DNA of 64,000 nt, taken from contig WION01000251.1 in NCBI GenBank assembly GCA_015039365.1, positions 1-64,000 of the forward strand. Reading direction: 5' to 3'. The position numbers and the translations under genes were made by a program. Positions 25,003 through 64,000 of the stretch are shown piece after piece (the first letter of the stretch is position 1; every line of letters starts with the position of its first letter). The notes under the pieces are model-generated. The model ran no database searches, was not told the origin of the DNA, and saw only the letters and a program-made list of their open reading frames with translations. This stretch comes from Amanita rubescens (lineage: Eukaryota; Basidiomycota; Agaricomycetes; Agaricales; Amanitaceae).

Positions 25003-28000
25003 ATGGCAGCTACCCCTGGTGCACCTTCTTTGAGTACTAATCTACATCACTCAGCACTGCTAATCCTTGACTGAAACATAGTATCAGATGCAGATGAGAC
25101 ACATGTTCAAATGCTCAGGGAACACTATCTATGCCCACACTTTCGCATCCTTGTCATTGGGAGGGCTAATGCAGGCAAGACAACCATACTTGAGAAGGTT
25201 TGTGGTGTAGAAAAGGGAACAAAGCCTATCATATATGACAAGGATGGTGAGTTACTCTGAGTTTTATGCTTCCTTTCACTGCTGAGTTTCTTGCAGGTAA
25301 TGAGCTTGAACAGTCTGTGATCCATTTGATGCCATCACTTGAAGTGAGCCAGATAATAATCCATGGATGTACCCATTCACATGAAATGATAACAGAGGGG
25401 CCTGCATGATATTGGGCATCAAATTACATACCCTGGAAGTAACTTTATCTTCCATGACTCTCAGGGTTTTGAATCTGGTTCAACTGAGGAATTGGAAATT
25501 GCTTGGAAGTTCATTGAAAAGAAGTCTGCAGAAACTGAGCTGAAAAACCAGCTGCATGCAATTTGGTATCTTGCTTTATCCCTGTACAGCACTGGTTGAC
25601 CTGGCTTCCCCTAGGTACTGTATACCCATGGACAGCCCTCGTCCAATTCTACCTGTGGAACTTGAATTCTTCAATAAAGGGACAGGGAGAGGTAAGTCCT
25701 AACAAATTCATATCTCATCTTTTAATTTGGAGAGATTGTTTACCCTTAATTTTAATTGGCTGGCCAACTTGCCACAAAATCTACTAGTACTGACTAGTAA
25801 ATATCTCCTTTACAGTTCCATTGGTGGTTGTATTCACTAAATTTGATGGTCAAATAGCCACTGAATATGTCAACTTGACTGATGCAGAGGATGAAGATAA
25901 GTGGGAGAGAGCCAGGGAAATTGCTGAAGTTACTTTTCAGAAAGTTTATCTTCCTAAAGTTTTGGATGCCAAATATCCTCCCAAGGTATATGTGCGATTG
26001 GAGGGTGAGAATGATGAGGATTTCTTCCTAAAAATGGGATTGATTTGCTTCATAGACATGGATTTAACAGAGAAGAATTGTGCTGAATTAACTCAGAAAA
26101 CTGCTGATGCAATAAATGATGACAGCATACATCAGCTGTTTGTTTCAACACAGATGAATAATCTTGACCTTTGTGTTAAATCTGCACTTCAGTGAGGGTT
26201 ACATTCAAAATGTCACTTATTGAACATTGACATTGTTTAGACATGTTCTGAAACATAAACATTGGACATGGGATGATGTCATTCTCATAGTCTTTTCCAA
26301 ATTTCCACATTTCTGGGTATGTATTTTCATCAAACTGCAGATTAGTGTAGGAAACTTCAAATGACAATAGGTGGACAGGGAGGTAGGTGGCCTTCATATG
26401 GAATCATAAATACTGCAACAAGTTCATCAGGAGGTAAGTAACATTCCAATGCCTTCATATGAAAACAAGATTAGTCATGCTTCAGATGGCAAATAAACAA
26501 CTGAGTGAAACAAAGGTTACTTGTCACCATATTCTCACTGGCAGGGCCCATCTGATGTTATGATATTGGCAATAATCAGTGGGTGAGTGACATTGAACTA
26601 GCAGAGATCTGATATGGATTGTCTCATGACAACAGTTTGTGAGTACTAATGTATCCTTTGTGATCTGAATTCTTGGCCCATAATTTACAGGCAGTGAGTG
26701 ACATGACTCAATTTTGATGTTTGGTAAATGATCCCATGATGATCATATAACAAATAGCAAGTGAGTTAAGCTATCATTGTAAGCAGACTTGATAATCCAG
26801 TCTCTTGTCGACAGGGAGTGAGTAATACAACAATGCTTCACAGCACATCTGACCTGCTTAAAAAAGAAAGTAAGCAACATTGATGTTTGTGTGGTTGATT
26901 AGACATAATTCAATGAACAACAGAAAGTTGGTGACATACTATTATCTGAGAGAGAGAGAGAGTCTCAACAAATTTCCTTGCATTAATCACAGGAAGCAAG
27001 TGACATTTCCTTTGTCCATACTTATAAACACCATCTTGTTAACAGACAGTAAATATTTCTCCTTTTCAAAGCCTCTTCACAAACTATTGCAAAAAAAATA
27101 GGATGTATGTGATTCTTTATGAGAAGTGAATTCACCTTGTGAAAAACTATGGCAAAAGAGAGTCAGTAGGATTCTTCTCTTTTTCCCAACTGATGGTGCC
27201 AATTCCATTCTAAAAGGAAGTGAGTGATTCTGGCCATTTTGCTAAGGAAGCTTTGAGCACATTCTTTTGTCCTACAGATTGTGAGTTTTACTGCAAATAT
27301 TGTGAAGAGCTGGGAAACTACACCTTTTTCTTTTCTATGACCAACAGCAAGTGAGTCCAGACACTGCACAGTTTGTGAAAGGCAGTCTCATCAGATCTAT
27401 TCTCAACAGCGAGTGAGTGACATTGTACATTCTATGAAAGGCTCTCTCTCTCTCACATCTTTTCCTATGACCCAACAGGGAGTGAGTGACATCTTGTGAA
27501 AGGTGGTCTCATCACATATTACCTGTGAACAACAGCAAGTGAGTGACATTGCGCATTTTGTGAAAGGCAGTCTTATTACATCTGTCCCTATGAACATTGA
27601 ACAGGGAGTGAGGCATATTGCATGTTTTGTGAAACCCATATGGATCACATTCATTACATCTTTCCTATGACCAACAGCAAGTAAGTGACATTGCACATTG
27701 TGAAAGGCAGCCTCATCACATATTTTCCCATGATCAGCAGGGAGTGAGTGACATTTCACTTCTTGTGAACAGCAGTCTCATCATATCTTTTCAAACAACC
27801 AATGGCAGCGAGTGAGCAACATTGCACATTTTGTGAAAGGCAGTTTCACCACATCTACTATTCCTATGAATTGAACAGCTTGTGATTATTGTACATTGTG
27901 TGAAAGGCAATCTCACCAAATCTTTCCCTATGACCAACAGCTTGTGAGTAGCATTGCACATTTTGTGAACACAGTTTCATCACATCTTTTCCTATGAACA

Positions 28001-30697
28001 ACAGCTTGTGAGTGACATTGCACATTTGTAAAAGGCAGTCTCATTACATCTTTTCCTGTAATCAACAGCAAGTTAGTGACATCACACATTTTGTGAGAGG
28101 AAGACTCATCAGACTTTTCCTATGACTAACAGCGAGTGAGTGGCACTGCACATTCTCTGAAAGGCACCATTCATTAGATCTTTTCCTATGACCAACAGGG
28201 AGTGAGTAACATTGCATGTTTTGTGAAAGGCAGTCTCATTACATCTTTTTCTACATATGACTGAACAACAGCTTGTGAGTGACATTGCACATTTTGTGAA
28301 AGACAGTCTAATTACATCTTCTCCTATGATCAATAGCTTGTAAGTGACATTGCACATTGTGAAAGGCAGCCTCATCACATCTTTTCTATGACCAAAAGCG
28401 AGTGAGTGACATTGTACATGCCTTGAAAGGCATTCTCATCACATCTTTTCCTATGACTGACAGCAAGTGAGTGATACTACATATTTTGCAAAAGGCAGTT
28501 TCATAACATCTTTCCTTATGACCAACAGCAAGTGAGCAACATTGCACATTTTGTGAAAGGCAGGCCTATCATATATTTTCCTATGACCAACAGCTTGTAG
28601 GTGACATTGCATGTTTGTAAAAGGCAGTCTCATGACTTCTTGTGATATGACCAACAGTCTGTGGGTGACATTGCACATTTTGTGAAAAGGCACTCTCATC
28701 ACATCTTTTGTATGACCAACAGCTTGTGAGGCATTGCACATTTTGTGAAATGTGGACTCATGACATTTTTATTATGATCAACAGGAAGTGAGCATCATTG
28801 CACATTTTGTGGCAGACAGACTCATCACACTTTTCTCATGACCAACTCAGCAAGTGAGCCACATTGCATATTTTGTGAAAGGCAATGATGAGATCTTTTC
28901 CTATGACCAACAGCATGTGAGCAACATTACACATTTTGTAAAAAGCAGTCTCTCAAGATCTTTTCCTATGAACTACAGGGAGTGAGTGACATTGTACATT
29001 TTCTGAAGGAGTCAATCTTTTCCTATGAGGCTATGACCAACAGCGAGTGAGTGGCTGCAAACTTTTGTGAAAGGCAATCAAGTCATTACATTCCTATCAT
29101 CTATCATCAACAGCTTGTGAGTTACATTGCACATTCTGTGAATGGCAGTCCCATTGCATCTTTTCCTTTGACCAACAGCGAGTGAGTGACAGTGCACCTT
29201 TTGGGAAAGGCTCACTGCATCTTTTCCCATGACCAACAGAGAGTGAGTGACATTGCACATTTTGTGAAAGGCAACCTTACCACATCTTTCCTATGGCCAA
29301 TAGCTTGTAAGTGACACTCCACATTTTGTGAAAGGCACTCTCATCATATCTTTTCCTATGACCAACAGGGAGTGAGTAACAATGCACATTCCATGAAAGA
29401 CAGTCCCATTACTTCTCCTATGACCAACAGCTTGTGAGTAACATTGCACATTTTGTGAAAGGCAGTCTCATCAGACCTTTTCCTATGACCAACAGCGAGT
29501 GGGTGATGTTGCACATTTTGTGAAAGGCAGTCTCATCGCATCACTTTTCCTATCACAAATAGTCTGTGAGTGACATTGCACATTTATTACATCTTCTTAT
29601 ATGACCAACAGCTTGTGAGTAACATTGAACATTTTATGAACAGCAGTCTCATCACATCTTTTCCTATGACCAACAGCAAGTGAGTGACATGCACATTTTG
29701 TGAAAGGCAGTTTCATCACATTATTTCCAACCACCAACAGGGAGTGAGTGACATTACACCTTTTTAAAGGCACTATCATCAGATCTTTTCCTACAACTAA
29801 CAGGTGGTGAGTGGCATTGCACATTTTGTGAATGGCAGTCTCATCCCATATTTTCTTATGACTAACAGTCTGTGAGTGACACTGCACATGTTATGAATAG
29901 TGGTCTTATCAGGTCTTTCCCTATGGCCAACAGCAAGTGAGTGACATCAAGCATTTTGTGAAAGGCAGTTTCATCAGATATTTTCCCTTTGACAAACAGC
30001 TTGTGAGTGATACCACAAATTCCCTGAGCCGAATCCCCACCATATGTACCCCAATTCATGAATGTTTGATATATCAGAGAGTGAGTACCTTGGCATATCT
30101 TTTCCATGTCCTCCTTTTACATCATTATCATCCTAGTTTGTAAGATTTCACTTCAGCTGCTCATTCATCTCACTTAAATCACTTTTTTTTTTTTTTTTTT
30201 TTTGATTTCCAGGTGAGTGATGCTGTTTATGTGGTTTTGATTTTCCCATCAGTTTGCATTCTAGTGTGTAGGTCTGGTGATGCATTGGAGGTTTTACTCT
30301 ATCTGATAACTAGCATGAACTTTTCTCCATGTTTGGAGACAAGCAAAGGAACTTTGCAATCCAGGTATTGTTCTTTTTTTGGGGGTGTAGTACACAACTG
30401 ATTCCATTCCAACAAGCCTATTGATTGCCAGGTCTTAATTTGTAAATTACTCCCTTTCATTTAATGTATTTATGCTTAAACTTTCAAGCAATGATTATCA
30501 TAGCCAAGCTATCCTTTTGGATCAGTGGACCATTTCTGCCATCAGTCACAGAAGCCTTCAATCAATACAAGCAAAAAGGCTATGTTCAGAAACTGAAGAA
30601 TGACATTACTTCTGACTTTATGCACTCTGGTCATCAAGAGTTGATCACACTGCTCTACAGGCAAGTGACTCACATTGATGGTAGGTACTTCATCTAG
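25003..30697 (+). CDS. GTPase gene 1 with a single-codon microexon array (intact)
   Basis: Conventional exons are 25003-25033, 25082-25246, 25297-25343, 25396-25565, 25615-25691, 25816-26191 and 26241-26316. They encode a P-loop GTPase domain with G1 GRANAGKTT, G3 HDSQGF and G4 TKFD, then LFVSTQMNNLDLCVKSALQ and VIFSKFPHFW-type residues. About 57 exons of 3 nt follow (26431-30080), all phase 0. Then come exons 30314-30364 (ELFSMFGDKQ), 30417-30441 (25 nt) and 30489-30697 (AKLSFW ... KGYVQKLKNDITSDF ... THIDG), ending in TAG. With every microexon included the product would be about 465 aa. The G domain resembles the large AIG1/septin-like GTPase family expanded in mushroom genomes, whose role is not established. 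I see no frameshift or stop in any exon. Confidence 0.75.
26431..30080 (+). repeat. Microexon array of GTPase gene 1: about 57 exons of 3 nt
   Basis: Each unit is an intron of about 50-66 nt plus one codon, AG|NNN|GTRAGT. Early, diverged units have codons TGG (26580), TTT (26636), GCA (26691), CAA (26758), GGA (26815), AAA (26867), AAA (26924), GAA (26993, GC donor), ACA (27046), GAT (27102), AGA (27159), GAA (27217) and ATT (27278). From about 27350 the units become similar to each other (GTGAGTGACATTGCACATTT ... CCTATGACCAACAG), and the codons are mostly CTT, CGA, GGA and CAA, with some TCT, AGA, GAA, CAT and GTG. I found no TAA, TAG or TGA codon in hand counting. The DNA is thus also a minisatellite-like tandem repeat of about 62-66 bp. 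Confidence 0.85.
30183..30218 (+). other. Zero-length exon / candidate recursive splice site in gene 1
   Basis: After a run of more than 20 T, the sequence TTTCCAG is directly followed by GTGAGT (junction 30212/30213). An acceptor fused to a donor is the hallmark of recursive splicing. The same AG|GT junction occurs at the same place, between the last microexon and the ELFSMFG-type exon, in genes 2 (near 32154), 3 (60945/60946) and 4 (near 63014). Confidence 0.55.
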
Positions 30698-31559
30698 TCA
30701 TGCACTACTTATAAACAATTTATTGCAGGGTGAAACACCCAGCATGATATTCAGGTGATTTATTGGCTACTTCTCTTTGCATTGACCTCATATTAATTTT
30801 TACCTACATACATAGATCACTTCTCATATGCCTTCCCTTGGCTACATGTATTCATGCATCAGTCTCAAAAAATCTTTGTAATGTAAACATACATACATAC
30901 ATATGGTTATGGATGTGAGTAAAAGGTGTCCATAGAATGGTAGCTACATAATGAAATACAGTATGAGCCATTATTGGCAATCACAGAAGCTCACAATAGG
31001 TGATGGCACTCCAATTTGTGCTGTATCTCTTGCATTAAGTCAAAGTGACAGGAGGAAGAGACATTCTGGAAGTAGAAAGTTTCTGGATGTATGCCTATGA
31101 TCTGGACCTCCAGTGCATGCAAAGGTTTCATGATAGAGATGAAATGGTTGTGACTGCCATATACAATCATATGCTTATATCTCATGCATTGTAACACCAA
31201 AGGAATAATAGTTTGACAGGATGACTTGTGCAGCAGTGGTACATACATATATACTACAGAAAATGAAGGACATCTGGATTACCTGTGTATAAGTTTATAG
31301 TGTAACTTTTGAACTTGAAATACATTGAATATATCAGCATAATTGGAGTTTACATTTCAATTTAAACAGTTAGTTACTTGTACAAAAACATCTGTACCCA
31401 GATGGGACCCTCATAAGCAAAAATGGCCATAGATAAAATCAGCGTAAAACTGAAACAAAAGACATATTTAAGAAAAATGAAAGTGAGGGATAATGGCATA
31501 CAAGGGGAAGGCATAACTGAAATAAAATGGCATTAATGCTGTTAGAAAGTTGCTGCAAA
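30698..31559. other. Region between the tail-to-tail GTPase genes 1 and 2
   Basis: No gene. The first 60 bases (CAGGGTGAA..CACCCAGCAT and on) match the 3' flank of gene 3 at 61468-61510, so the duplication continues past the stop codons. A short TACA microsatellite is at about 30886-30904. The rest is AT-rich. Confidence 0.5.
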
Positions 31560-34500
31560 TTAGTGTGATGCTACAGGGGTCATCCTATTGCAAATTTGAT
31601 GTGAATGGACCATAATATGAATAAATTTGTTATTGAACATACCAGCAATATTGGTGATCTGATGATACAAGAATGCAAGTAATTCTTCATGATTGGAAGG
31701 CAAAGACTCTGGAGTAATGCAAGCCTTTACTTTATCCACATAACCTGCTGTTCTGAACTCAACAAGGCCATCCCTTATAAAATGCTCAAACAGCTGTCTT
31801 CTTCTTCTCACTGGCCCCATCCAATATGATAATTTTGCAATGATGTTGATTGCTTTCAAATATCAGGGGGGAAAAGTAAATAAAATGACAAAAGATGCAT
31901 TACCAACTAAGATTTGATATGCAACAGGCTGGTGGCCCAAACATCAATTAACAGTCATGATATCACAAAAATGGGAATATGTCTTACAGTTGCTGAGAAC
32001 TCATTAAATGTTGGTACTCCAAATGATGAACAAAGTTCAGGCTGATGAGAAGAATTTTGCAGATATAAAATTTGGTCAATTGGTGGACATACAAGCTTAA
32101 TTTAAATTAGCATTGTTGTTGATATCTTGGCATACATACATCATCATTGCTTACCTAGAGGTGGAAGGAAAAGGCTATCAGAAAGGTGTCATAAATTTAT
32201 AAGTATTGTGTTACAATCTTATGATTGAATATTAGTAAAAGCATAGCACAGAAAGTTATAGGTTTTCTCACTTCCTGTAATATCCATGGCCAGATGTTTA
32301 ATTTGGAAAGAAAGTTCATTTTCACACACTTTCTACATCAGGTATAATGGGGCTCAAGAAAGCTCAGTACTCCACTTACTTTCTGTTGTAGTGAAAGAGG
32401 AAGTGCTTGAAGCTTGTCAGGATTGAGTCACTCACAAACTAATGGGCATAGGATGTTTGTGACAGCTGGGCTTGGAAAATACAATGTCACTCACAAACTA
32501 TTGACCATATGACAACATAAGATGTATCAAACTACCTGCAGAAACATGATGGAACCACTCACTTCCTTCAAGAGATGAAGCTGCTTGCTACATAAAAATG
32601 GCTCAGTGTGCTCACTTGCTATTAGTCAAGGGATGGATGGGATAAGATGGGAATGTTAGTGTGATAGTGGCACCTACCATCTATTGCATAAATGTTATAC
32701 ATGTAATGTTGTGCTAAACAAAAGGGATAATTTACTCACCAGCTTTGTGATGTGGTTTGAATGTAAGGGTTGTTATTTAAGAAAATCCACAGTACCACTT
32801 ACAGACTGTCATAAAATGTTGTGATATCCTTTGGTAGAAATGTGACTGACTCTCTGTTGGTGATGTGATGTAATGTGATAGACTGTTTTATCCTGTTCCA
32901 CTCACATCCTGATGTGAATATGTGATGAGAATGATGGGGAGAAGGAAATTTAGCATTGCGCACTCTCTGTTGACCATGTAACATGTTTTCAAGACTGACT
33001 GCATGGACAGAAACAAATTTACTTACTTCCTTTTGGTCATGAGACAATCAATAAGACTGATAGGAAAGCATGGAATGTAGGGTTACACACATCCTATTGA
33101 ATAAGGGATTGGATTGAATGTGATGATTCAACCAGGAAAACAAGGTAGTATTGTCACTCACAATCTGTTGGTCATGGAATATGATCATTGAGCTGCGATG
33201 TAGCCATCTCCAAAAAAAAAAAAAAAAAGAAATGTACTCACTATCTGTTGGTCACAAGATGTATGTATGTATGTGATTAGACCTTGTGGGAATGGGGTAC
33301 ATTATTTCTTACAATCTATTGATCATGACATGAGGTGTGATGAGGCCACCTAACAAAAAAGTGCAGGGTCACTCACACACTGTTGGTAATGGGAGGTGAT
33401 GAGATCACACAGAAAAAGACTGGGTCACTCACATACTGTTTGTGAAGGGATGTGATATGCATGATGCCACCTGAAAAGGAAGGTCACTTACAAACTGTGG
33501 GTGATAGGGCGATGAGATATGACAAGATGAGAAGGTGGCATGACTCACCCCCTATTGGACATGAAATATGTAAGATATGATAAGAGCATCTGAGGAAAAA
33601 GGCAGGGTTGCTCACGCCCTGTTAGCCATGCAGTGAGATGTACAGTAATATGACCATCTGAAAAAAAAACAGTGTGAGGTCACTCACAATCTGTGGTCAA
33701 ATGATGTGATCATTGAGCCATGAGGGACTACATGGAAAAAAATTGAGGGTCACACACCCCCTGTGTATTTTAGCATGTGATATGGCAGGAACATCACGAA
33801 AAACAGTGCAGGGCCACTCACATACTGTTATTGTTATTGATGATAAGTTATATAATGAGACCACTTGAGAAAGAAATATATGGGGACACTTACCAGTGGC
33901 TGTTAATTGTGGAATGATAAACCATGAGATTACTACTATGGAAAGAAAAAAATGCTCTGTCCCTCACATCCTGTTGGTTATGGAATACTAGGATGTGAAC
34001 ACTTAGAAAATGTTTATGGGGTTACTCACTGACTGTTATGATAAGATGTGTTTAGTGGCCACAAACAACTTGAAAGAAATGTATTGTCACTCACTCTCTG
34101 TTGTTGACATGTAACTTATCATGAGACCACTGGACAAGAAAAAACTTGGTGGATCACTGACTCGCTGTTAATTATTGGATAATGTGTGAGACAAAAAAGA
34201 AAAAAGAAGTAGGGTTACTTACTGGTTGTTCAGGCTTGTATGATACCATATGATGAGACCACCTGGGAAAATAATGCAGATTCACTCACATCCTATCATT
34301 GATAAGATAACCTGGGAAGGAAGATTTCAGGGGCATTCACCTCCTTTTGGTTTTGGGATGCATCAGACATGATGAGAATGCCCAAAGGGATGAATTTTGC
34401 AGTGTCACTCACAAACTGTATGTCATGGGATAAGACATAAAGGCCTGACAGGCTTGCACCAAATGTGGCACTTACAAACTGTTAGACACAGGATGGCATG

Positions 34501-37500
34501 ATATTTCTTAGAACAAAATTGTGATGAAAATATATAAAACCATATATTATAATGATAATATATCGTAGATATTTTCTTATCTTATCAGATTATCTTATCT
34601 TATCTGAAGATAAGATAGTATGATCTTATCTATCTCCATTAGTATAGATTAAGTAGATATAAATACGCTTGCGTCATAGTTACTAGATATGATTCCTTGT
34701 GAATCATATATCGTCATTCTACAGCAATCTGTCAAGAATGAACTCTATAATATCTGTCATACAGCAATATGTCAGATATGACAGAACCCTATAATTTCTG
34801 TCAATCATTATGACTAGGAATAGATCATATGATACGTTATGACTCACATATTGTCATATGATGAGTCAATATGACGATAGCTGTGTAATACAATACACAC
34901 CTTATCATCCAATAGGATAAGGTCCGTAGATAGCATAGTTTACACTTATTTGTATCTCAGACAATATATAAGGAGGGACAATTCGTTGTATCCTCCTAAC
35001 TTCTTACTCTCATCCCTACATCTTATAGTTGAGCCTCTAGCTCCTATAAAGTCCCCACACACTCCTACCTTCACAGTAAGTCGGTTCCTTACTCAGTCAC
35101 ATGCGCTGCGCTGCTGCATTGGTCTCCATGACGGGAGAAACCAACTTCGTCAAATTGCAATGGAACTTACATCCTATGATGGTCTGATGAGATTGACTGT
35201 TCAGTGACAGAAATTATTGAAATTATTCACTCTCTTTGAAATGACATGTGTTGAGTCAGTTAGGCCAATGATACACAATGTAAGTCACCTCCTGTTCACC
35301 ATGCAATGAAACTGTCATGCATAGGAGCCATGGTGCTGGTACTCACTCTCTGCCAGTCATGCAATAATGAGATAGTCATACAAATAACTATGCAGCAATA
35401 CTCACTTTCTGTAAATAAAATGAGTGGAAACAACTGTACAGAAATGGTTGAAATGAACATACAGCCTGTTTTTCATGGTATAATATTTGAAGAGACTGCT
35501 TAGCAACACAAATATATTATTGCTCACCATCTGTTGGTTATACGTATCATTTTCTGGAAACTGTCAGCAGTAAAATGTCACACATACAACCTATTAGTCA
35601 TGGAGCAATGATACATAAGGACATTTTCCCTCAAGAGTGTGGTGTCACTCACACCCTGTGTGGCATGAGTTGTATTAATGACTGCTGGGCCAAAATAGTG
35701 TTGTCACATACTGACTGTTGGACTTGTGAAATGTGATTGGTCCTTTTATGTACTAAACTCACCTCCTGTTTATCAAATGATGAGACTTCATGTATATATT
35801 TTACATAAGGTGGGCATTGTCACTCACTTCCTATTTCTTTATGGTTAGACTTGCTAGCCATGAGTGCATGGTATCACTCACAAACTGTTTGTATCACTGA
35901 GATCAGCATTTATCAAAGCCAGGAACATTTCACTATCACTTGCCCACTATCATTGAAACAATTAGTGGTACCTGGAAAAGCATTTGTTATATCACTCACA
36001 TTGTTACAAACGTACGTCATGGCCTATCTTTTTTTTTATCTTATCACTTCCGTTATCTCTCCTACGTCACTGTTTGCATATGCGTTCCTTCTAGAACATT
36101 CATCGTTTATCATATGCTATTCCGTTTATCACATGCATGTCGATTATCACATGTAAACCGTTTCATTATCACATGCATTCTTACTTACTATATTTGCGTA
36201 TATACCTTGTACTATATAAACTACGCAAATATACGACTAGACCTCAGTCTAGTTTTAACAGTCAAAATCTGTCTCGTTATCGTTTAAGCTCCCTTGAGGA
36301 CTTATCCGATAACACTCTTATTCTTTGAACGTTCTTAAGTGCCGGAATTCCCTCGAGGAACCTACGGTACCTGATAAGCTTGACTTATCAGTAAACGAAC
36401 AAACGTAACAATAAAACTAGACTCCTCTCCGAGCACGATAGCTTTAACGCTCTCACCTCCCATCATTCACCATTGCTCCACGACAATCTAAAAGTACCCC
36501 TCCGAATAACGCCAAACGAAACCCCCTTAACCATCTCTATTATCTCGACGAACATTCCATTCATTGGGATAAATGAGAAAACGGCTGGTGTTACACCGCT
36601 TCAGGAAAACCCGTACCAGGTCACCAGTTTTGGGTAAAACAAAAACTTGGAAGACCACCAAATCAGTCCTTCCCATTTGAAGGAGGATTATACCTAAACG
36701 AACGCAAACTTGCCTTCCACGAAGGCAGTAAACGTTGGTACGCCACCGAATCGGAAACAGGAGAAGAACCGTACTTTATTAGAGACGAATATTTCGAAGG
36801 AGAACCCTTCGTAGGAGGAAAAGAGGAGTTATCACAAACCGCGCTACAACGTTGGAAGAAAGCGAATGAACCAGAGACCCTAACCACTAGTCAAGAAACT
36901 CCCGTCACCTCACCACACATTCATTACAGAGAAAGCGCCGAACCGTCAGGAGAGTCCGATAAAGAAGACAATAAAGATTCCCTCTCTGAACAAGAGAAAG
37001 AAGAAGAATCCCAGGATAAACTTGAATACGCACCTGGAACCGAAGACGTTGTTATACCCACAGTTGAACAACGAGTTGAAGACGAAACCTCAGCTCAACT
37101 TATCGCTTCCTTATCCCTTGTAACCGAATCAAAACTCGAAGCTACACGACCCGCACCATTACCCCCTGTTACTTTCCCATATTTGTTTACCCCACCAATC
37201 AATCCATTTCCCTCCAGGAAAGGAAAAGAACGAGATATGAGTGGATCAGGACCCCGGACTGAACCAAGGTCAGATCTACCGAAGATCAAACCTCCTAAAC
37301 CGTTCGAAGGAGATCGAAAATATCTCAATCCGTTCATAGCGAAAGCCGAATTATTCATGAAAATGAATAAAATGACGGATGCCCAAGATAAGATACAGTT
37401 CATTATGTATCATATTGACGGCAACGCTCAACAATGGCGCGACAACAAAATAACTGAATACGACGCCGAAACGACAAAATACGCAGACTATAACACTTTT

Positions 37501-43500: not shown

Positions 43501-46500
43501 CACACTACCGAGCACCATCAACGACGAGAAATATGCCGAGGACCAATACATGAGGAAACCCCACCTCCTACTTATCCAGACGCTATTACACAATCGTCGC
43601 TGCCCATGCCGTTTGAACAAATCCCTGAACGACGAATTTCTACCGCTTCACCCGCTACTACTATTGATTCCGCCCAACTCGAACAAGGCGAACCTTCCCC
43701 GCTTATTGAAAGAAGACGACGAGGAACAAATACTCGCCCTCCGGACAACCGCTTCACCACTACTACCACCGGACCCCCACCGTCACAACGAAACCTTGGA
43801 AATCGCCGAGGCCAATCGACACGAGGACAGTCACGTCCTGTCGCCACTATGACTGCCTCCAATACACGAGAAGAGCGATCGACTCTTCAAGAACGTCTTA
43901 CCAATAACCGCCGCCGCCGCCGTCATCCTTGGCAAGGAAATGAAGACTCTTACACCTATGACAGCGACGCCGAACACAATCGTGACACGTAGTCACAAAT
44001 TATTTCAATATTCGGTGAATATTGGACTTCGTATGTAGGAGAAGGGCTATGTTACAAACGTACGTCATGGCCTATCTTTTTTTTATCTTATCACTTCCGT
44101 TATCTCTCCTACGTCACTGTTTGCATATGCGTTCCTTCTAGAACATTCATCGTTTATCATATGCTATTCCGTTTATCACATGCATGTCGATTATCACATG
44201 TAAACCGTTTCATTATCACATGCATTCTTACTTACTATATTTGCGTATATACCTTGTACTATATAAACTACGCAAATATACGACTAGACCTCAGTCTAGT
44301 TTTAACAGTCAAAATCTGTCTCGTTATCGTTTAAGCTCCCTTGAGGACTTATCCGATAACACTCTTATTCTTTGAACGTTCTTAAGTGCCGGAATTCCCT
44401 CGAGGAACCTACGGTACCTGATAAGCTTGACTTATCAGTAAACGAACAAATGTAACACACATCAATCTCATTCACCTGGTTGATATAACATTAGTTATGT
44501 CACAATTTGTTCAACTTCACAAGTGAATGCACAGTGGTATGCACCCACATTTGTAGATCTCCCAAACTATCTAGGTCAGTGCTTCTACATCCATGTGAAT
44601 GCATTTGAAAAAATACCCAGTAGTGTGGAAACTTGGCAAGGACAATGATGAAAACAGCATCCAGAGATATTCCCGTTTCACCAAAGACATGCCTGGCTGC
44701 TCAAAAATTTAATTTATATTTTAGTGTGACACTTACTTAAGTCCAGCTTTAACACAAAGATCAAGATTATTCCTCTGGGTTGCAACAAATAATTCTCGAA
44801 GACTGGCATCATCAATTGCATCAGCAGTTTTCTCAGTCAGTTCAGGACAATCATTTTCTGGCATGTCCATGTCTATCAAAGTATTTGACTCTATTTTTAA
44901 GCAGGAATGTTCATAGTACTCCTCACCTTCCAAACGTACATATGCTTTGGGAGGATTTGGAGTATTGAGGACTTTAGGAAGATAAATTCTCTGAAAAATC
45001 ATATCAGCACTCTCCCTGGCCATGTCCCACTTAGTTATATCATTTTCTATGATACCCAAGGTTTCAGATTCTTGAATGACTTGCCCATCAAATTTGGTGA
45101 ATATGGCCACCAATGGAACTATAGGTGTAGTGCTTATGTATCAGGACAGTGTACTTGGTTAAAAAGATGACAGGACTTGCCTTTCCCAGTCCCTTTATTA
45201 AAGAATTCAAGTTCTGTGGGTAGAAGAGGGTGAGGACTGTCCATGGGTATACAGTACCTACAAAACCTGAATTGGTGACTTGCAGAGTACAAATGCATCA
45301 AGTATACCAAATTGCATGTAACTGATCTTTCAACAGAGCTGCAGCAGACCTCTTCTCAATGAAATTCCAAACAGCTTCTAACTCTTCTGTTGCCCCACAT
45401 TCAAAGCCCTGAGAGTCATGGAAGATGAAGTTGCTCCCTTCATATGTAATCTGATGCTCAATATCATGTATGCCTCTCTTACAATTTAATGCACATCAGT
45501 GAACATTCCATATTCAATTATTTTCCTCACCTCAATTGATGGTATCACATGTGTCCCATCAGGTGTCATTTCTTCACCTAAAAGCTAGGCATGAGCACGG
45601 GTAACCCGTGGGTAGGCCGGACCATACCCCGACCCGTACCCGTAGAAACCCGTACCCGTCAACCCGCGGGTTGTTCCCTTACGGGTTATGCGGGTACGGG
45701 TACGGGTACGGGTAGTATACTGTTATGTGTAGACTGATGTTGCAATTGTCAGTAGTGCTATCATACGCTGCTTATAATACTATTGTATCCCACCCGTTTT
45801 CCATCTCTATGTGCTTATCCCCCTCAACATCCTGCATACCGGAAACTGTTTTTATGTCAGCACTTTTTATAAGGCCAAGGCGGCTCCAGACGCCCAAGCA
45901 TATCAACGCTCGGGAGCTTTGTGCACTCAGACGACTGCGCACGTGGGAAATGACGAGGCGGCCGCGACTGAACAGTCGTTCTACCTCAATTGATGTAGCT
46001 GTGAATCCAGTGAAGTTAGTAAACGAGAAATTTATTAAGAAAAGAAACATACCCGGAATTGCCAAGTAATCGAGAGCCATGCGAGAAAGGCGAGGGTATG
46101 AGCTGCGTCGCTCGTACCACCATGATATTGCGTCCTTGACATCTTCTACATCACTGTCAAGGTAGCGTTTGAGCTCGTTGGAAGCCTGGATGTTAGGCAA
46201 GGGTGCGAGGGACGGTAGCGCATCAAACCGGTTCACGCGCTCAGTTAGAGATGTCTGGATAGTCAATATCAGTTTACTAAGGGATTGAAATAACGTGGAA
46301 TGCGACATACCTTGTCCTTCTGCTTAGATCCTTGCTCTTTCTCTCCTACGAGCCCCTCCTCAGGCTGTACGACATCCAAATTTAGGTAGTCTCGTTCATA
46401 TTCTTGCTCGACTAATTCACGAGCTGTATCAATCCAATCCTGCTGCCATCCGGCTGACTTGAAGTACGAGAGCTTATAGCGTGGGTGTAAAACTATTTTT

Positions 46501-53223: not shown

Positions 53224-54631
53224 ATGGCAGCTACAACTAGTGAACCTTCAAGTTCTTTGAGTAGGTTAATTTATGTCTCATCCTTGACACATACTAGTCA
53301 CAGTACCAGATGCAGCCACAGATGAGACACCTATTCAAGTGCTCAGGGAACGCTATCTATGCCCACACTTTCGCATCCTTGTCATTGGGAGGGCCAATGC
53401 AGGCAAGACAACCATTCTTGAGAAGATATGTGGTGTAGCAAAGGAGACAAAACCTATCATATATGACAAGGATGGTGAATTGCTCTGAGTTTTGTTTCTT
53501 TTAAGTGTTGAATTTCTTGCAGGTAATCAGCTTGAGCAGTCTGTGATTCATTTGATGCCATCACTTGAGGCAAGTCAGATAATGATGTATGGCCCATGTA
53601 CCCATTCACATGCAATGATTATAATAGAGAGGCCTACATGACATTGAGCATCAAGTTACATACCCTGGAAGTAACTTTATCTTCCATGACTCTCAGGGTT
53701 TTGAATCTGGTTCAACTGAGGAATTGGAGATTGTTTGGAAATTCATTGGAAAGAGGTCTGCAGAAACTGAGCTGAAAAACCAGCTGCATGCAATTTGGTA
53801 TCCTGCTTTATCACTTTATGCTACTACCGGCTGATCTGGCTTCCTCTAGGTACTGTATACCCATGGACAGCCCTCGTCCCATTTTACCTGCAGAACTTGA
53901 ATTCTTCAATAAAGGGACAGGCAGAGGTAAGTCTTAATGAATTTGTATCTTGCCTTGTAACTTGTTGGTCTTGGGGAGATTGTTTACCCTTCACTATTGT
54001 TACCTCCTTTCCATTACCCAACCTGCCACAAATCTGCTAGTACTGACTAGGAAATACAAACAGTTCCTTTAGTGGTTATATTCACTAAATTTGATGGTCA
54101 AATAGCCACTGAATTTGTCCACTTGACTGATGTAAAGGATGAAGATAAGTGGGAGAGAGCCAGGGAAATTGCTGAAATCACTTTTCAAAAAGTTTATCTT
54201 CCTAAAGTTATGGGTGCCAAATATCCTCCCAAGGCATATGTGAAATTGGAAGGTGAGAATGACAAGAATTTCTTCCTGAAAAAATGGGAGTAATGTTATT
54301 TCATAGACATGGATTTAGCAGAGAAGAATTGTGCTGAAGTAACTCAGCAAACTGCTGATGCAATAGATAATGACAGCATACATCAGCTGTTTATTTCAAC
54401 ACAGATGAACAATCTTGACCTTTGTGTTAAATCTGCACTTCAGTGAGGGCTACATTCAAAATGTCACTTACTGCCATTGATATTATTCAGACATGTTCTG
54501 AACCATACAGAATTGACATGGGGTGATGTCATTATCATAGTTTTTTCAAAATTTCCACATTTCTGGGTATGCATTTTGTTGAACTACATGTTGGCTAAGA
54601 AGAAAAATTACTGGAAATAGGTGGATAGGGG

Positions 54632-55762: not shown

Positions 55763-55820
55763 GATAGGGGGGTAGGTGGCCTTCATATGGAATGATAAAT
55801 ACATGCAAAACATTCACCAG

Positions 55821-58800
55821 GAGGTAAGTAACACTCCACTGATGGCATCCATGAATACAAGACTGGTCATGCTTCAGATGACCAATAAACAACTCAGTGA
55901 AACACAGGTCAGTTGTCACCATTTTTGGTGGCAGGATCTGATGTTATTGATATCAGTGGGTAAGTGACATTGAACTAGCACAGACTCTTCAATATACATT
56001 GTCTCACTGATGACAACAGTTTGTGAGTAATGTACCCTTTTGTGATCAGGAGTATTGTACCATAGTTTACAAAGGAAGTGAGTGACATCACCCAATTTTG
56101 TTTCTGGCAAATTATCCTATGGTCCATCATATGACCAACAGCAAGTGAGTTGATCTATCATTGTGATCAGACTTGTCAACCCAGTTTCTTGTGGACAGGG
56201 AGTGGGTAATACAACACTGCCTCACACCACATCTGACCTGCTCAAAGAAAGTAAGCAACATTTGGCATGTTTGTTGAAGTTTATCAGACATGACTCGATG
56301 AACAATAGAAAGTTGGTGACATATTGTTACATATCTGAACAAGAGCCTCAGCAAACTTCATTGGATTAATAACAGGAAGTAAGTGGTATTTCCTTTCTGT
56401 CTACTTATAATCATTACATCTTGTTTCAAAACAACAGACAGTTAGTAAATATTTCTCATTTTCAAAGCCTCTTCAGCAAGCTATTGCAAAACAAATAGGA
56501 TGTATGTGATATATGTTTGTCAAATGTGAATTCACCATACAAACTACTATAAAAGAGAGTGAGTGGCATTGATTTCTTGTTTCCAAATTTATTGTGTTAA
56601 TTCCATTCTAAAAGGAAGTGAGTGATGCTGACCACTCTGCTGCAAGACAGTTTCAACACATTCTTTGTTTTACAGACTGTGAGTGATATTGCAACTTTTG
56701 TGAAAAGTAGTGAAATCACATCTGTTCAAATAAATGTAGAAGGTTAGCAGCATAACATGCTGGTCCAGTGGTTCAAAAGATGACCTTCTCAAAAATTTGT
56801 GTATGTCCCACAGTATGTGAGTAATTGTGAACATTTCTGAAAAGCTGGCCTATGTATTTTTTCTGCCATTACTGACAGGATGTGAGCAACATTGAAGGTT
56901 TTTGTGGAAAGCAGTTTCACCACATCTTTTCCTGACCAACAGGGAGTGAGTGACATTGTACATTTGGTGAATTGAAGGCAGTCTCATCACATCCTTTCCT
57001 ATGACCAACAGCGAGTGAGTGACATTACATACTTTTGAGAAAGGCAGTCTCATTTCATCTTTCTTATGATTGACAGCGAGTGAGTAACATTGCACATTTT
57101 TGGTAAGGCGGCCTTGTCACTTCTTTGCCTGTCACCAACAGGGAGTGAGTGACAATGCACTTTGTGAAAGCCTTTCTCATTGGGTCTTTTCATATGGCCA
57201 ACAGAAAGTGAGTAACATTAGACATTTTGTGAAAGGCAGTCTCATCACACCTTTTCCTATGACCAACAGGGAGTGAGTGACGTTGAACATTGTATAGAGT
57301 AGCCCCATAACATCTTTCCTATGACAAACAGGAAGTAAGTGATGTACATTTTGTGAAAAGTAGTCTCATCACATCATTCCTATGACCAACACAGGCTGTG
57401 AGTGATATTGAACATTGTTTGAAGCAGTCTCATCACATCTTTTCCTATGACCAACAGGAAGTAAGTGATGTACATTTTGTGACCAGCAGTTTTTTCATAT
57501 GAGTAACAGTTTGTGAGTGAAATTGCACTTCTTATGAAATGCATCTCATCATACATTTTCATATGACCAACAGCTTGTGAGCAACATTGCACATTTTTGA
57601 AAAGCGTTCTTATCACATATTTTCCTATGACAAACAGGAAGTGAGTGACATTGCACATTTTATGAAAGGCTATTCATCACTTTTTTTTCTACAACCAACA
57701 GGGAGTGAGTAACATTGTGCATTTTGTGAAAGACAGCCTCACCACATTTTTCCCTATGACAACAGGGAGTAAGTGATATTGCAAATTTGTGAAAGGCAAC
57801 CTCACCACATTTTTCCTTATGACCAACACCAACAGCTTGTGAGTGATATTGCACATTTTGTCAACAGCAGTCTTATCACATCTTTTCCTATGACCAACAG
57901 GAAGTGAGGGGCAAAGGCTTGCACATTTTGTGAAAGGCAATCTCACCTGTGATCACATTATTTTCTATGACCAACAGGCTGTGAGAGAAATTGTACATTT
58001 TGTGAAAGGCAGTTTCATCACATCTTTTCCTATGACCAACAGGAAGTAAGTGAGATTGTACATTTTGTGAATGCAATCCACCACACCTTTTCCTATGACC
58101 AACAGAATGTAAGCAACGTTGCAAAACTTGTGAAAAGCAGCTTCATCACATTTGTTCCTACAATCAATAGCTTGTGAGTGACATTGCACATTTTATGAAA
58201 GATAGTGTCATAACTCTCACAACATCATTCTCATGACCAACAGCATGTGAGCAACATTGCACATTTTGTGAGAGGCAGTAGGCTTAACACATCTTTTGCT
58301 ATAACCAACAGCTTGTGAGTAATATACCAATTTTGGGAAAAACAGTCTCATCACATTTTTTCCTATGACCAATATGACTCAGGGAGTAAGTGATATTGCA
58401 AATTTTGTGAAAGACAATCTTATCACATCTTTCCTATTATCAACAGCTTGTGAGTGGCATTGCATATTTTTGGAAAAACAGTCTTATCACATCATCAACA
58501 GGGAGTGAGTGATATTATAGATTTGTGAAAAAAAGTCTCTTCATACAACCAACAGCGAGCAAGTGACATTGGACATTTTGTGAAACACAGTCTCACATCA
58601 TTTCCTATGTAACTAACAGAAAGTGAGTGACATTGCATATTTTGTAGCCCCACCACATCTTTTCTGATAACCAACAGGCTGTAAGTGGCTTTGCAAAGTT
58701 TGTGAAAAATAGTTTTGTGAGTGGCATTGCACATGTTGTGAAAGGTTGATCATCACATCTTGACCAACAGGGGGTGAGTGACTCCATTGCACATTTTGTG

Positions 58801-60804
58801 AAAAACAGTCTCATCACATCTTTTCCCTTTGGCCAACAGCAAGTGAGTGATATCATTGCTCATCTTTTGAAAGGAGGTCTCATGACTCTCATCACATCAT
58901 TTTCCTATCACCAACAGGGAGTAAGTGATGTTGACACATACATTTTGTGAAGGGCAGTCTCATCACAACTTTTCCTATGACCAACAGCTGGTGAGGGATA
59001 TTACTCATTTTGTGGAGGGCAATCTTGTCACATGTTTTCCTATCACCAACAGGGTGTGAGTAACATTGCACATCTTATGAAAGGCAGTCCCATCACATGT
59101 TTTCCTATGACTGACAGCGAGTGAGTGACATTGACAATTTTGTGAAAAACAATTACATCTTCCCCTATGTATGACCAACAGATGGTAAGTGAAATACCAT
59201 GTTTTGTGAAAGGTAGTCTCATCACATCTTTTCCTATGACCAACAGCGAGTGTGTGCCATTTCACTTTTATGAAGGCAGTCTCATTGCATCTTTTCATAT
59301 GACCACAGGGAGTGAGCAATTGTTGTGCATCTTGTGAACAGCATTCTCATCACATCATTTTCTATGGCCAACAGGCAGTGAGCAACAGTGTACATTTTGT
59401 GAAAGGCAGCCTCATCATATCTTTTGCTATGACCAACAGTTTGTGAGTGACTTTGCACATCTTGTGAAAGGCAGTTGGATCACATCTTTTCCTATGCCAA
59501 CAGCGAGTGAGTGACATTGCATATTTCATGAAAGGCAGGTATCATCTCATGTCTTCCTATATGACCAATAGTTTGTCAGTGACTTTGCATATTTGTGAAA
59601 TGCAGTGTGATCACATCTTTTCCTGACCAACAGCTTGTGAGTGACATTCCACATCTTGAAAGGCACTGTGATCACATCTTTTCTGTGCCTGACAGAATGT
59701 GAGTGACATTGCATATTTTGTGAAACCCAGTCTCATCACATCTTTTCCTATGACCAACAGGGAGTGAGTAACATCACACATTTTGTGAAAGGTAATCTCA
59801 TTACATCTTTTCTAATGACCAACAGGAGGTGAGTGATGCTGCACATTTTGTGAAAGGCAGTCTCATTGTATGTCTTCTTATGGCCAACAGCTTGTGAGTG
59901 AGATTGCACATCTTGTAAAAGGAAGTCTCATCACATCTTATTATGACCAATAGGGAGTAAGTGAGATTGCACATCTTGTGAGAAACAGCCTCATTGCATT
60001 TTTCCTATGACCAACAGGGAGTGAGTGGAATTGCACATTTTGTGAAAGGCAGTCTCAGAATCACATCTTTTCCTGTGACCAACAGAAAGTGAGTGGCCTT
60101 GCACACTTTGTTAGTAGCCTAATCATACATCTTCTATGACCAACAGGAAGTGAGTGAGATTGCACATTCAGTGAAATACAGTCTTGTCCATCTACCAACA
60201 GGGAGTAAGTGACATTGCAAATTTGTGAAAGGCAGTCTCATCACATCTTTAATTCCTATGACTAATAGTTTGTGAGTGACATGGCACACTTTGTGAAAGA
60301 CAGTGTCATCTCATCTTTTCTTATGACCAACAGCAAGTGAGTGACATTTGCACATGTTATCAAAGGCAGTCTCAGCACACCTTTTCCTATGACCAACAGC
60401 GAGTGAGTGACATTGCATAGATGTGCAAGGCAGTCCCAGGCCTATCATATATTTTCCTATTATAAACAGCTTGTGAGTGACATGCACATTTTGTGAAAGA
60501 CAGTCTCATCACATGTTTTCTATGACCAACAGCTTGTGAGTGACATGGCACATTTTATGAAAGGCAATCTGATCACATGTTTTCATATGACCAACAGGAA
60601 GTAAGTGACATTGACTTTTTCTGAACTGCAGTCTCATTATTCATATATCTTTTCCTATGACCAACAGGGAGTGAGTGACATTGCACATTTTGTGAAAGGC
60701 AGTCTCATCACATGTTTTCCTTTGACTAACAGCTTGTGAGTAATATCACAAAATGAATGTTCAAGTTTGATATATCATCACATCCTATAATGATATGCCA
60801 GAAA
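55821..60804 (+). repeat. Microexon array of GTPase gene 3: about 77 exons of 3 nt
   Basis: It starts GAG (55821), TGG (55957), TTT (56020), GAA (56075), CAA, GGA, AAA, AAA, GAA, ACA, GAT, AGA, GAA, ACT (56676), AAG, TAT, GAT. It then enters a homogeneous tandem part (56940-60730) with GGA, CTT, CGA, GAA, CAA, TTT, GCT, AAA and others. I found no stop codon. One unit near 58710-58726 shows four bases (TTTT) and a preceding intron of about 40 nt, so it is probably a fused, dead unit. One donor is GC (CGA|GCAAGT, near 58560). The last microexon is AAA (60802-60804), followed by the AG|GT zero-length site at 60945/60946. Confidence 0.85.
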
Positions 60805-61435
60805 GTAAGCATGTTGCCACATCTTTTCCATGTCTTCCATTGCACTATTATGTATTATCATAGATTGTAAGATTTCATTGCAGCTGACCCACTTCCACCT
60901 CATTTGGTCATTTGTTTCACCCATATCACTTTCCTTTATTTCCAGGTGAGTAATACTGGTTCATGAGATATTTATTTCACATCATTTTGCATGCTAGTGT
61001 GTAGGTTGATGGTACATTGATGTTTTACTCTATCTCATAACTATGCACATAGGATGAACTCTTCTCCATGTTTGGAGACAAGCAAAGGCACTTTGCTATC
61101 ATGGTATTTTTGTTTATTTTCTAGATAGTACACAACTGATGCCATTGCAATAAGCTTGCTGATTGCCAAGTCTTAGTTTGTAAATTATTCCTATTCATTT
61201 ACCTTATTTATGCTTAAACTTTCAAGCAATCATCATTATTGTCAAGATATCCTTTTGGATCAATAAACCATTTCTGCCATCAGTCACAGAAGCCTTAGAT
61301 CAATACAAGCAAAAAGGCTATGTTCAGAAGCTGAAGAGTGACATTACTCCTGACTTTATGCACTCTGGTCATCAAGATTTGGTCACCTTACTCTATATGC
61401 AGGTGACCCGCATTGATGGTCAGTACTTTGTCTAG

Positions 61436-62497: not shown

Positions 62498-64000
62498 TCA
62501 GATGTGGGCAATCAAATTGTACAAGAATGCAGATAATTCTTGATGATTGGAGGGCAAAGTCTCAGGAGTAATGCAAGTTTTCACTTTATCCACATAACCT
62601 CCTTTTTTGAATTGATAAAGAGCATCCCTGACCAATTGCTGAAATGTCTTGATTTCTTGAGATGATCCCTTAGTTGGCTTCAACCAAAATGACAGTTTTG
62701 CAATGATATTGTTTGCTTTAAAAATATTGGCTAAAGAAGTATGGAAATTAGAGGGGATGATTTACCAACTAAGATTTGATATGCAATATACTGGCAAAAC
62801 AAATCTCAGTTGACCTAAGAATATAAAAAGGTATTAAACACTCACAGTTGCTGGGGCTGAGAACTCCAATAATGGTGGTGCTCCAAACAATGACAGAAGT
62901 TCAGGCTGACAGTAAGAAAAGTAAAACTATCAAGATCGACTTTGTAGCCAACATACTATCTGAATGAATATTAGTATTCATAGTTATTGATGCATGGTGG
63001 GTGATGATCAGTACCTAGGAAGACCCATGGAGAAATGTTATGAAGCACTGAGAGTATTCTCTTACAATCTGTAAGTATTGGTAATAATATGAGAAAAACA
63101 TGGCAGGAAAATGAGATGTTTACTCACTTCCTGTTAAAACCACCATGTCAGTATGTTATATTAGGGAAGAAATTTCAATACTATATACTCTCTGTATTCA
63201 TAAGCAAACATATCTTACAAATGAAAGGCTCAATACCACTGACTTTCTATTGTGCAGCATACAGGAAATGCTTTTAGATGGCCAAGTTGACTAAGGCTTG
63301 ACTCACAAGCTAAACATAATAGGTAAAGATTTTGAAATGCATGGGGATAAAGAGTGGAGTGTCACTCACAAACTATTATAATATTTTGATGATATGAGAT
63401 GTGCTAGACTGGCCTCCAGAATGTGCAATGTTGCTTACTTCCTAGGGGTCATGCAGTCAGCATGTGGTAAAATTACTTCATTTATGAGCTTACTTGCTAG
63501 CAATCAAGGGATGGGTTGAGGTGAGGCTGCTAAATCATAAAGGCACTCACTCTCTGTCATTAACAATACAATATTGATCATCCAGCATCCAGAAAGTGCA
63601 TGCTGCTCACAAACTGTATGTGGCATGAGATGAGATAAGATAATCTGAAAGAAATGTACTGGCACTTACATCCTGTTGAATACATCAGATGGAGAGCAAT
63701 ACATTCTGATATACATATATAAAATATGACTGACTCTCTGTTTGTGATGGGCATTGAAAACCATGGAATTATGAAATTGCTTGCAAGGTGATATTTCACT
63801 CACTTCCTGTTGGTTGTGGGATGGGAGGATAAGATTATGACAATATGATTTTTGCAAAGAAAACTCTGAGTCACTAACCTTCTGATAGTCATGGAACAAG
63901 TGTGATGGGATTTCTTGGAAAAAGCAAAGTTAGTGCCACTCACCTGCTGTTGTTGTGGGATTGGCAGTAGTGAGACAACCTGGGACCAAAAGTGGAGGGT
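62498..64000 (-). CDS. GTPase gene 4, 3' part only (microexons and C-terminal exons)
   Basis: The minus-strand gene runs off the right edge, so the G domain is not seen. Visible parts are 15 microexons (63946 down to 63066), an AG|GT junction near 63014, and exon 62846-62905 (PELLSLFGAPPLLEF). A 25-nt exon follows (ending AYQILV), then exon 62498-62715 (NNIIAKLSFW ... KGGYVDKVKTCITPETLPSN ... LYNLIAHI, stop). It is closest to gene 2, as gene 1 is to gene 3, so the tail-to-tail pair was duplicated as a unit. Confidence 0.7.
63066..63946 (-). repeat. Microexon array of GTPase gene 4 (15 visible sites)
   Basis: In transcript order: CAG (63944-63946), AAG, GAA, AGA, GAT, TTT, AGA, CAA, GAA, TTT, CTT, AAA, AGA, GAA, ATT (63066-63068). 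All are three bases between a CAG/TAG acceptor and a GTRAGT, GTCAGT, GTTAGT or GTATAT donor. No stop codon. Intron bodies are diverged, as in gene 2. Confidence 0.75.

Follow-up and report, generated by a model that had tools for sequence, protein, structure and literature searches.

The window analysed here is a 64,000-nucleotide stretch of Amanita rubescens DNA (contig WION01000251.1, positions 1 to 64,000, assembly GCA_015039365.1). It contains G1, a gene of a GTPase family in which the GTPase part and the C-terminal helices are separated by a tandem array of three-base segments, each flanked by an acceptor and a donor signal. We describe these segments as predicted one-codon exons. The gene model is listed below, with slashes marking splice boundaries.

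25003..26316, plus strand: GTPase N-terminal part of G1 in 8 ordinary exons (25003-25033, 25082-25246, 25297-25343, 25396-25565, 25615-25691, 25816-26004, 26056-26191, 26241-26316), all GT-AG, open frame M..FPHFW
26371-26382, plus strand: 12-nt exon VDRE with an AG acceptor and a GTAGGT donor (related protein P0002, FPHLWVDR)
26431-26433, plus strand: first single-codon exon, GAG (E), in the context CAG/GAG/GTAAGT
26486-26515, plus strand: 30-nt exon MANKQLSETK, bounded by AG and GT (related proteins P0021, MANKQLSEAQ, and P0002, VTNEQLSETK)
26580..30139, plus strand: 57 consecutive single-codon exons, the last starting at 30137, with the peptide WFAQGKKETDREIQRGQGQGRLLLQRGLLRQQLSLEQHGRLRRLGLRSLQGVSQLRF
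30211..30214, plus strand: zero-length exon AG/GT (junction 30212/30213), resembling a recursive splice site
30265-30267, plus strand: last single-codon exon, TGT (C), in the context TAG/TGT/GTAGGT; TGT is also present in G2, a second such gene in the window, and the related protein P0019 reads ..DEVCD
30314..30699, plus strand: C-terminal exons 30314-30364, 30417-30441 and 30489 to the stop, open frame HELFSMFG..HIDGRYFI stop

The full predicted model of G1 comprises 72 exons and 71 introns and forms one 464-codon open frame starting at 25003. One donor is GC and all others are GT, and no boundary departs from GT/GC-AG. The intron at 26005-26055 was placed by comparison with P0001 and the relatives' QLEDMDLPEKNC; the G1 protein used for the Pfam scan, the GTPase-exon matching, the protein search and the transcript search still carried the residues of this intron. 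In that form the N-terminal part matched the Pfam domain MMR_HSR1 at E 6.2e-4 with 20.3 bits, below the gathering cut-off of 21.9, and the same domain is annotated in the database for some related proteins. The corrected model contains 386 ordinary codons, which served as the comparison set for codon usage. Within 24430-31640, the sequence upstream of the G1 coding part has no long match elsewhere, and the portion 31000-31640 matches contig C1 only partly. An allele of G1 was not found on contig C1, where copies of the other three genes described below (G2, G3 and G4) occur.

A first-pass annotation of the window had described about 57 one-codon exons in this gene. The tandem array proved to be real and its count, with the protein comparison included, rose to 59: one at 26431, 57 from 26580 to 30137, and one at 30265. 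The alternation AG/NNN/GTRAGT on which that description rested was recovered when exon length was left free (0-15 nt) between 26316 and 30314, with 58 of 61 exons exactly 3 nt long (57 of 59 in an earlier run). The gaps, said to be intron-sized and like other introns, were also borne out: 54 of the 62 introns in the array stretch measure 50-67 nt (range 46-75, with one 125-nt interval that holds the AG/GT site), and the nine other introns of G1 measure 47-52 nt except for one of 124 nt. Each unit is one codon, and the claim that any subset of units stays in frame therefore holds arithmetically. None of the 59 codons is a stop and none ends in C. The middle of the array is a tandem repeat with a period of about 65 and would encode a Q/R/G/L-rich peptide.

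Agreement with proteins of relatives

A search with the spliced G1 model returned short JGI contigs whose proteins are open across the whole gene (P0012, P0013, P0022, P0031), together with partial matches on short JGI contigs (P0002, P0019, P0021). Since the frames of these contigs cross the positions of ordinary introns in A. rubescens genes, we infer that the contigs are complementary DNA (cDNA). Their proteins would then come from spliced RNA, and G1 would be expressed and spliced likewise.

The closest agreement was found for locus L035 on contig C1, a likely ortholog of P0022 (GTPase exon 89% identical over 65 residues). P0022 is an uninterrupted protein from a 1.5-kb JGI contig, and the one-codon exons of L035 spell its middle in order. 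The 48 one-codon exons of L035, FESADNAAAKERQYYDDGVHA-GYGYYGGEKISEKERDKRKDFVEREIL, aligned to P0022, FESADDAAGKEREYYDDGIHSGGYGYYGGKKISEKERDHRRDFVEREIL, with one gap and 40 of 49 columns identical, at a score of 214; none of 2,000 shuffles scored above 61, and triplets read at eight shifted offsets did not pass 35. The single gap adjoins a 4-nt exon of A. rubescens that was omitted from the peptide. A second locus, L036, scored 130 against P0019, with gaps, compared to at most 61 in shuffles. When array-only peptides were compared with 12 JGI proteins, 13 of 21 matched at E <= 0.01 and 9 of 21 gave a better E-value than any of 2,100 shuffles. In G1, the part that agrees with proteins begins with the 12-nt exon and runs through GAG and the 30-nt exon to the first single codons (G1 VDRE-E-MANKQLSETK-W-F-A-Q-G-K-K-E-T-D-R-E-I; P0021 VGRD-E-MANKQLSEAQ-WFEHGKKDTDKQI), with a looser agreement with P0002 beyond. 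The earlier proposal that the transcript is assembled codon by codon is thus strongly supported at the level of sequence, as one-codon peptides of paralogues match uninterrupted JGI proteins residue by residue. It is very likely, judged from these alignments, that dozens of consecutive one-codon exons make real protein.

The corresponding linker changes fast. Identity between P0012 and P0013 is 99% in the GTPase part, falls to 66% immediately ahead of the linker and to 45% inside it, and returns to 94% beyond it. In a structural model of P0012, the GTPase part and the C-terminal helices were mostly confident, and residues 294-358, which make up 65 of the 80 that separate FPHYW from LPELF, had a predicted local distance difference test (pLDDT) value below 50. 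The best Foldseek matches of this model were GM4951 and Irga6/IIGP1, which are immunity-related (IRG) GTPases, with E from 2e-5 and template modelling scores (TM-scores) of just 0.30-0.43, and dynamin-like proteins and G-alpha followed close behind.

A family of arrays and its variation

The array in G1, first taken for a single case, is present as described and is also a family trait. Three further arrays lie in the window, at 55768-60948 (plus strand, G2), 35946-32272 (minus strand, G3) and 63946-62957 (minus strand, G4), and further GTPase-exon matches were found in the genome (150 scored of 421 candidates, haplotype copies included). Twenty loci, L010-L029, were hand-picked downstream of such matches, and exon chains were called by dynamic programming over acceptor and donor sites with exon length free. 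Four of 27 chains were dropped (L009 plus strand, L012 minus strand, the second of L016, and L024 minus strand) and 23 were kept. Locus L014 was excluded from the length tally (985 exons in 22 chains) and its 49 codons were included in the codon tally (934 three-base exons in 23 chains); G1, G3 and L035-L037 lie outside the 934. Units across loci are not all independent, because L009 is the window gene G4, L012 is an allele of G2, and L016/L017 and L025/L026 are allele-like pairs.

In the length tally, 885 of 985 exons were exactly 3 nt long and 58 more had lengths of other multiples of three, zero included. All 20 loci L010-L029 contained runs with at least six three-base exons, and in 16 of the 20 a single run held at least 30. 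Pairs of consecutive strict units gave 1,383 + 1,162 matches in the whole 75.7-Mb genome, compared to 0 + 0 for the reversed pattern. The chain program returned one 4-unit chain without a 3-nt exon from dinucleotide-shuffled loci, and 145 units, 28 of them of 3 nt, from reversed sequence. The antisense strand gave 57 units, 52 of them of 3 nt, which correspond to arrays of neighbouring genes there (L009, L012, L024). The zero-length AG/GT site was also called in G2, L035 and L036 and, in 15 of the 20 loci, at the 3' end of the array, and was not called in G4; P0019 has no residue between the two residues flanking this position. A 29-base intron core had 600 exact matches in the genome; positions were obtained for the first 100, and a GTPase gene was not assigned to all of the places. 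As a separate observation, strict unit pairs extend over 8.6 kb at G000:C3:127059-135641, perhaps as two arrays, with a C-terminal exon match within at 132482-132676.

The array codons have a restricted composition. One stop occurred among the 934 codons, where their positional composition predicts 61.7 and a uniform composition 43.8. No array codon had C as its third base (0/934), compared to 66 of the 386 ordinary G1 codons. Six chains counted outside the 934 contained no stop and one C-ending codon, the only such array codon in G3. The ratio of NAG to NAA codons was 27:297 in arrays and 35:40 in ordinary G1 codons, and the rarity of NAG fits avoidance of codons that would create a second AG acceptor. 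Adjacent codons were not more often identical than in permutations in the 18 chains tested, except in L029 (P 0.01). The helical hydrophobic moment of the encoded peptide stood out in L010, was marginal in L024 (P 0.047) and did not stand out in 16 other chains.

Codons and introns change differently between copies. Between the allele-like loci L025 and L026, at positions called alike, 0 of 141 codon bases and 0 of 188 GT and AG bases differed, compared to 109 of 2,434 bases of intron interior; all 83 gap columns fell in intron interiors, with none at codons, GT or AG. The allele pair of G2 and L012 was almost alike (0/186 codon bases and 5/3,074 intron bases differ). The youngest-looking array, L037 (C13:580101-585300), carries mostly the codons CAA, CTA and CGA; of its 47 consensus-length introns, 41 match the consensus exactly, and departures from it number 6 in 2,914 intron bases, compared to 34 departures from the consensus codon in 132 codon bases. 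Similarly, 13 identical introns of L010 are flanked by six different codons on either side, and pairs of L010 units with an intron distance of at most 0.04 differ in their upstream codon by 0.535 per base, compared to 0.576 over all pairs. The eight extra codon states and five intron variants of L037 gave P ~2e-8, and the same test gave 7e-4 in L010, where distinct states are counted as single events in both cases. The introns of the L022 array show little mutual similarity.

Young arrays thus show an uncoupling of codons from introns. The cause may be either fast homogenisation combined with selection for varied codons, or conversion tracts confined to introns, or targeting of the codon for diversification. 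Taking this further, the arrays might form a one-codon cassette system in which the intron is copied and kept uniform and the three-base exon is specifically diversified, such that a GTPase family would rewrite a hypervariable linker codon by codon with the frame never lost. We put this forward tentatively and regard it as rather unlikely.

Interpretation and alternatives

We favour the reading that the 59 one-codon segments between the GTPase domain and the C-terminal helices of G1 are exons predicted to be joined codon by codon by the ordinary spliceosome, and assign it a rough probability of 0.88. The short introns (mostly 50-67 nt) and strong GTRAGT donors suggest intron definition, and as a 3-nt exon can hardly be shared by two spliceosomes, the introns would be removed in sequence. 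Each splicing step would add one codon to the upstream exon and expose the next donor, and the AG/GT site near the array 3' end would represent the same step with nothing kept. Because a unit consists of one codon and one intron, its gain or loss would preserve the frame. The array could then serve as a linker that joins the GTPase part to the C-terminal helices and is length-tunable, fast-changing and for the most part disordered.

Several observations weigh against this reading. The splice-site matrices were hand-seeded and trained on the window's own four arrays, and 42 of the 985 called exons had a length not divisible by three, some of them being misparsed longer exons. Of the 68 exons called in locus L014 (C749:1-6800), which is probably a decaying array, ten measure 2 nt, three 1 nt and three 4 nt. 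Units that break the frame were also called in L037 (2- and 4-nt exons) and L035 (one 4-nt exon), and L015 contains one TGA codon; these cases suggest that some copies may be decaying or may skip bad units. The branch-site motif YTRAY was not enriched (28.4% of array introns compared to 42.2% in shuffles), and TRAY was mildly enriched (75.7% compared to 64.5%), its A often lying only 8 nt from the exon. The sparing of codons seen between L025 and L026 is not general, as 12 of 141 codon bases compared to 224 of 2,252 intron bases differ between L021 and L022, and 6 of 78 compared to 89 of 1,348 between L019 and L020. Among the amplified paralogues G1, G2, L011 and L019, codons differ more (0.38-0.49) than introns (0.15-0.24), with GT and AG nearly constant. 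On the protein side, E <= 0.01 was also attained by 71 of the 2,100 shuffled peptides, which leaves weak peptide matches with little meaning, and neither the G1 array region nor an L025-type array had a transcript counterpart at E <= 10, the amplified middle of G1 being unmatched. The JGI contigs are presumably cDNA, and the splicing of the G1 array is a prediction read from genomic DNA and the proteins of relatives.

The clear tandem repeat in the middle of the G1 array raises the alternative of an intronic minisatellite, with splice-like motifs as part of the repeat and 26317-30313 removed as one intron. Annotation is consistent with this: the annotated A. rubescens protein P0029 skips the array region, and among 95 annotated homologs (of 120 listed), 46 of the 50 with an FPHxW-like motif end at most 45 residues after it. 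Annotation pipelines are, however, expected to overlook 3-nt exons. Stops are nearly absent from the array codons, the one-codon strings match proteins of relatives even for arrays such as L022 with dissimilar introns, and in allele-like copies the introns change but the codons, AG and GT are spared. A pure minisatellite was rejected because of these protein matches and this codon sparing, and we consider such an explanation highly improbable. The lack of a transcript match to the G1 array region, the frame-breaking exons of L014 and L037 and the concentration of G1's own protein support on its first codons leave more room for a mixed case, in which one-codon exons are real in older, diverged arrays and the amplified middle of G1-type arrays is skipped or decaying, with only the end codons translated. 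The 59 codons of G1 are nevertheless in frame and free of stops, P0002 carries on beyond the conserved start with residues rich in Q/R/G/L, as in G1, and the helical hydrophobic moment of the amplified L010 peptide was unreached by any of 300 shuffles; we find the mixed case doubtful.

Two further alternatives accept the exons and differ in how they are used or arose. Every unit being one whole phase-0 codon, the array could generate isoforms, each transcript keeping a different in-frame subset of codons, and the sharp drop in identity between P0012 and P0013 within an otherwise almost identical pair would suit this. Their identity already falls just before the array, which fits different genes better than isoforms, and the codon order and number of L035 match P0022 almost fully, as constitutive inclusion predicts. 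We regard an isoform generator as unlikely, though slightly less so than the mixed case. Alternatively, a formerly continuous exon may have received introner-like introns between all of its codons, an idea that the identical introns between differing codons in L037 and L010 bring to mind. Dozens of phase-0 insertions at exactly every third base are hard to explain, and the absence of C-ending codons from the 934 array codons, set against their frequency in ordinary G1 exons, also speaks against it. A single protein query for an uninterrupted version of the array peptide found none in this genome, a result that, lacking a positive control, shows nothing by itself. Insertion appears to us about as doubtful as the skipped middle.

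The codon-by-codon reading of G1 can be compared with known systems. Micro-exons in the micro-exon genes (MEGs) of schistosomes and tapeworms are described as measuring less than 70 nt, with a length that is a multiple of three, and a MEG as having at least seven exons (PMC7653826). Variation of the protein through micro-exon skipping is a further mark of MEGs. Of the 72 exons of predicted G1, 62 are of this kind (59 of 3 nt and those of 12, 30 and 51 nt), all 62 in a row from 26371 to 30364, and by the printed criteria predicted G1 qualifies as an extreme micro-exon gene. Runs of tiny exons divisible by three, frame-neutral skipping and difficult gene finding are common to both; what differs from MEGs is the presence of 59 exons of exactly 3 nt, separated by ~60-nt introns, in one fungal GTPase-family gene. 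The aphid megacycle gene has more than 100 microexons (PMC9168663), and the bicycle/megacycle genes of aphids likewise form a fast-evolving family of very many small exons, whereas the exons here are of one codon, in another kingdom and another protein family. Isolated microexons, namely 1-nt or 3-nt microexons in plant APC11 and VPS55 (PMC8831610) and in Drosophila homothorax (PMC7392893), and two 3-nt exons inferred in lipS genes of the fungus Dactylellina haptotyla (PMC5639578), indicate that exons so short can be spliced in, but number one or two per gene compared to dozens here.

Stepwise removal is shared with recursive splicing at zero-nucleotide AG/GU sites, which is described for introns of tens to hundreds of kilobases (PMC13149111). 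The AG/GT site near the array 3' end has this form, its use predicted from the motif, and each 3-nt unit has the same layout with one codon kept; unlike recursive splicing, the steps are ~60 nt and coding sequence is left behind. Fungal introner-like elements are near-identical introns in many copies among unrelated genes (PMC4457414). The array introns, too, are near-identical and numerous, but in the arrays they follow one another in tandem within genes of a single family. Within titles and abstract openings of open-licence literature on microexons, Amanita and Agaricomycetes, we found no description of arrays of consecutive one-codon exons, and the uncoupling of codons and introns may be the part of the arrays that is of a new kind.

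If the codon-by-codon reading holds, dozens of exons in succession bring exon size to a limit, and the handling by the spliceosome of two introns only 3 nt apart, repeatedly, becomes a testable steric question. A rough extrapolation gives ~11,000 one-codon exons in the assembly. The reading would also imply that a large GTPase gene family is truncated in current annotation, perhaps in other mushrooms as well, given how soon after the FPHxW-like motif most annotated homologs end. Splice-site rules are further suggested to restrict which amino acids a region can encode. For repeat evolution, the puzzle is that introns homogenise and codons do not.

Other arrays and neighbouring features of the window

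The three further array genes of the window were modelled as follows.

53304..54566, plus strand: GTPase exons of G2, the second copy
55768..60948, plus strand: array of G2, 75 three-base exons among 79 called, no stop; first codon GAG at 55821, TGT after the array at 60998
61053..61418, plus strand: C-terminal exons of G2, DELFSMFGDKQ..
44617..45475, minus strand: GTPase exons of G3
32272..35946, minus strand: array of G3, 11 + 33 three-base exons in two chains split by an insertion
31643..32041, minus strand: C-terminal exons of G3, PELCSSFG..
62957..63946, minus strand: 3' end of the G4 array, which runs off the edge of the window; L009 holds the whole array, with 45 three-base exons of 48 called
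62498..62905, minus strand: C-terminal exons of G4, PELLSLFG..

We rejected the idea that G2 is a pseudogene, since the stop and apparent frameshift in its GTPase exon correspond to a GT-AG intron (54253-54306), as in G1. About 1.1 kb of foreign-looking sequence (54640-55765) lies inside G2 between the FPHFW exon and the array. In G3, a long terminal repeat (LTR) retrotransposon occupies 36002-44457 between the GTPase exons and the array; its ends, near 36002-36410 and 44050-44457, are nearly identical and its frames look gypsy-like by eye. An unrelated-looking insertion at 34530-35150 lies mid-array and splits the two chains. A single G3 chain running through the retrotransposon was discarded, as the exons called there were meaningless, and the array is now given as two chains. 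In G3 and G4, a TTG close to the C-terminus was likewise rejected as a one-codon exon, being the end of a 25-nt exon. Minus-strand frames at 45772-48573, adjoining the 5' end of G3, resemble what we take to be a DNA transposase, and two similar minus-strand frames at 8900-9367 and 10428-10925 carry a stretch that is presumably ubiquitin-like.

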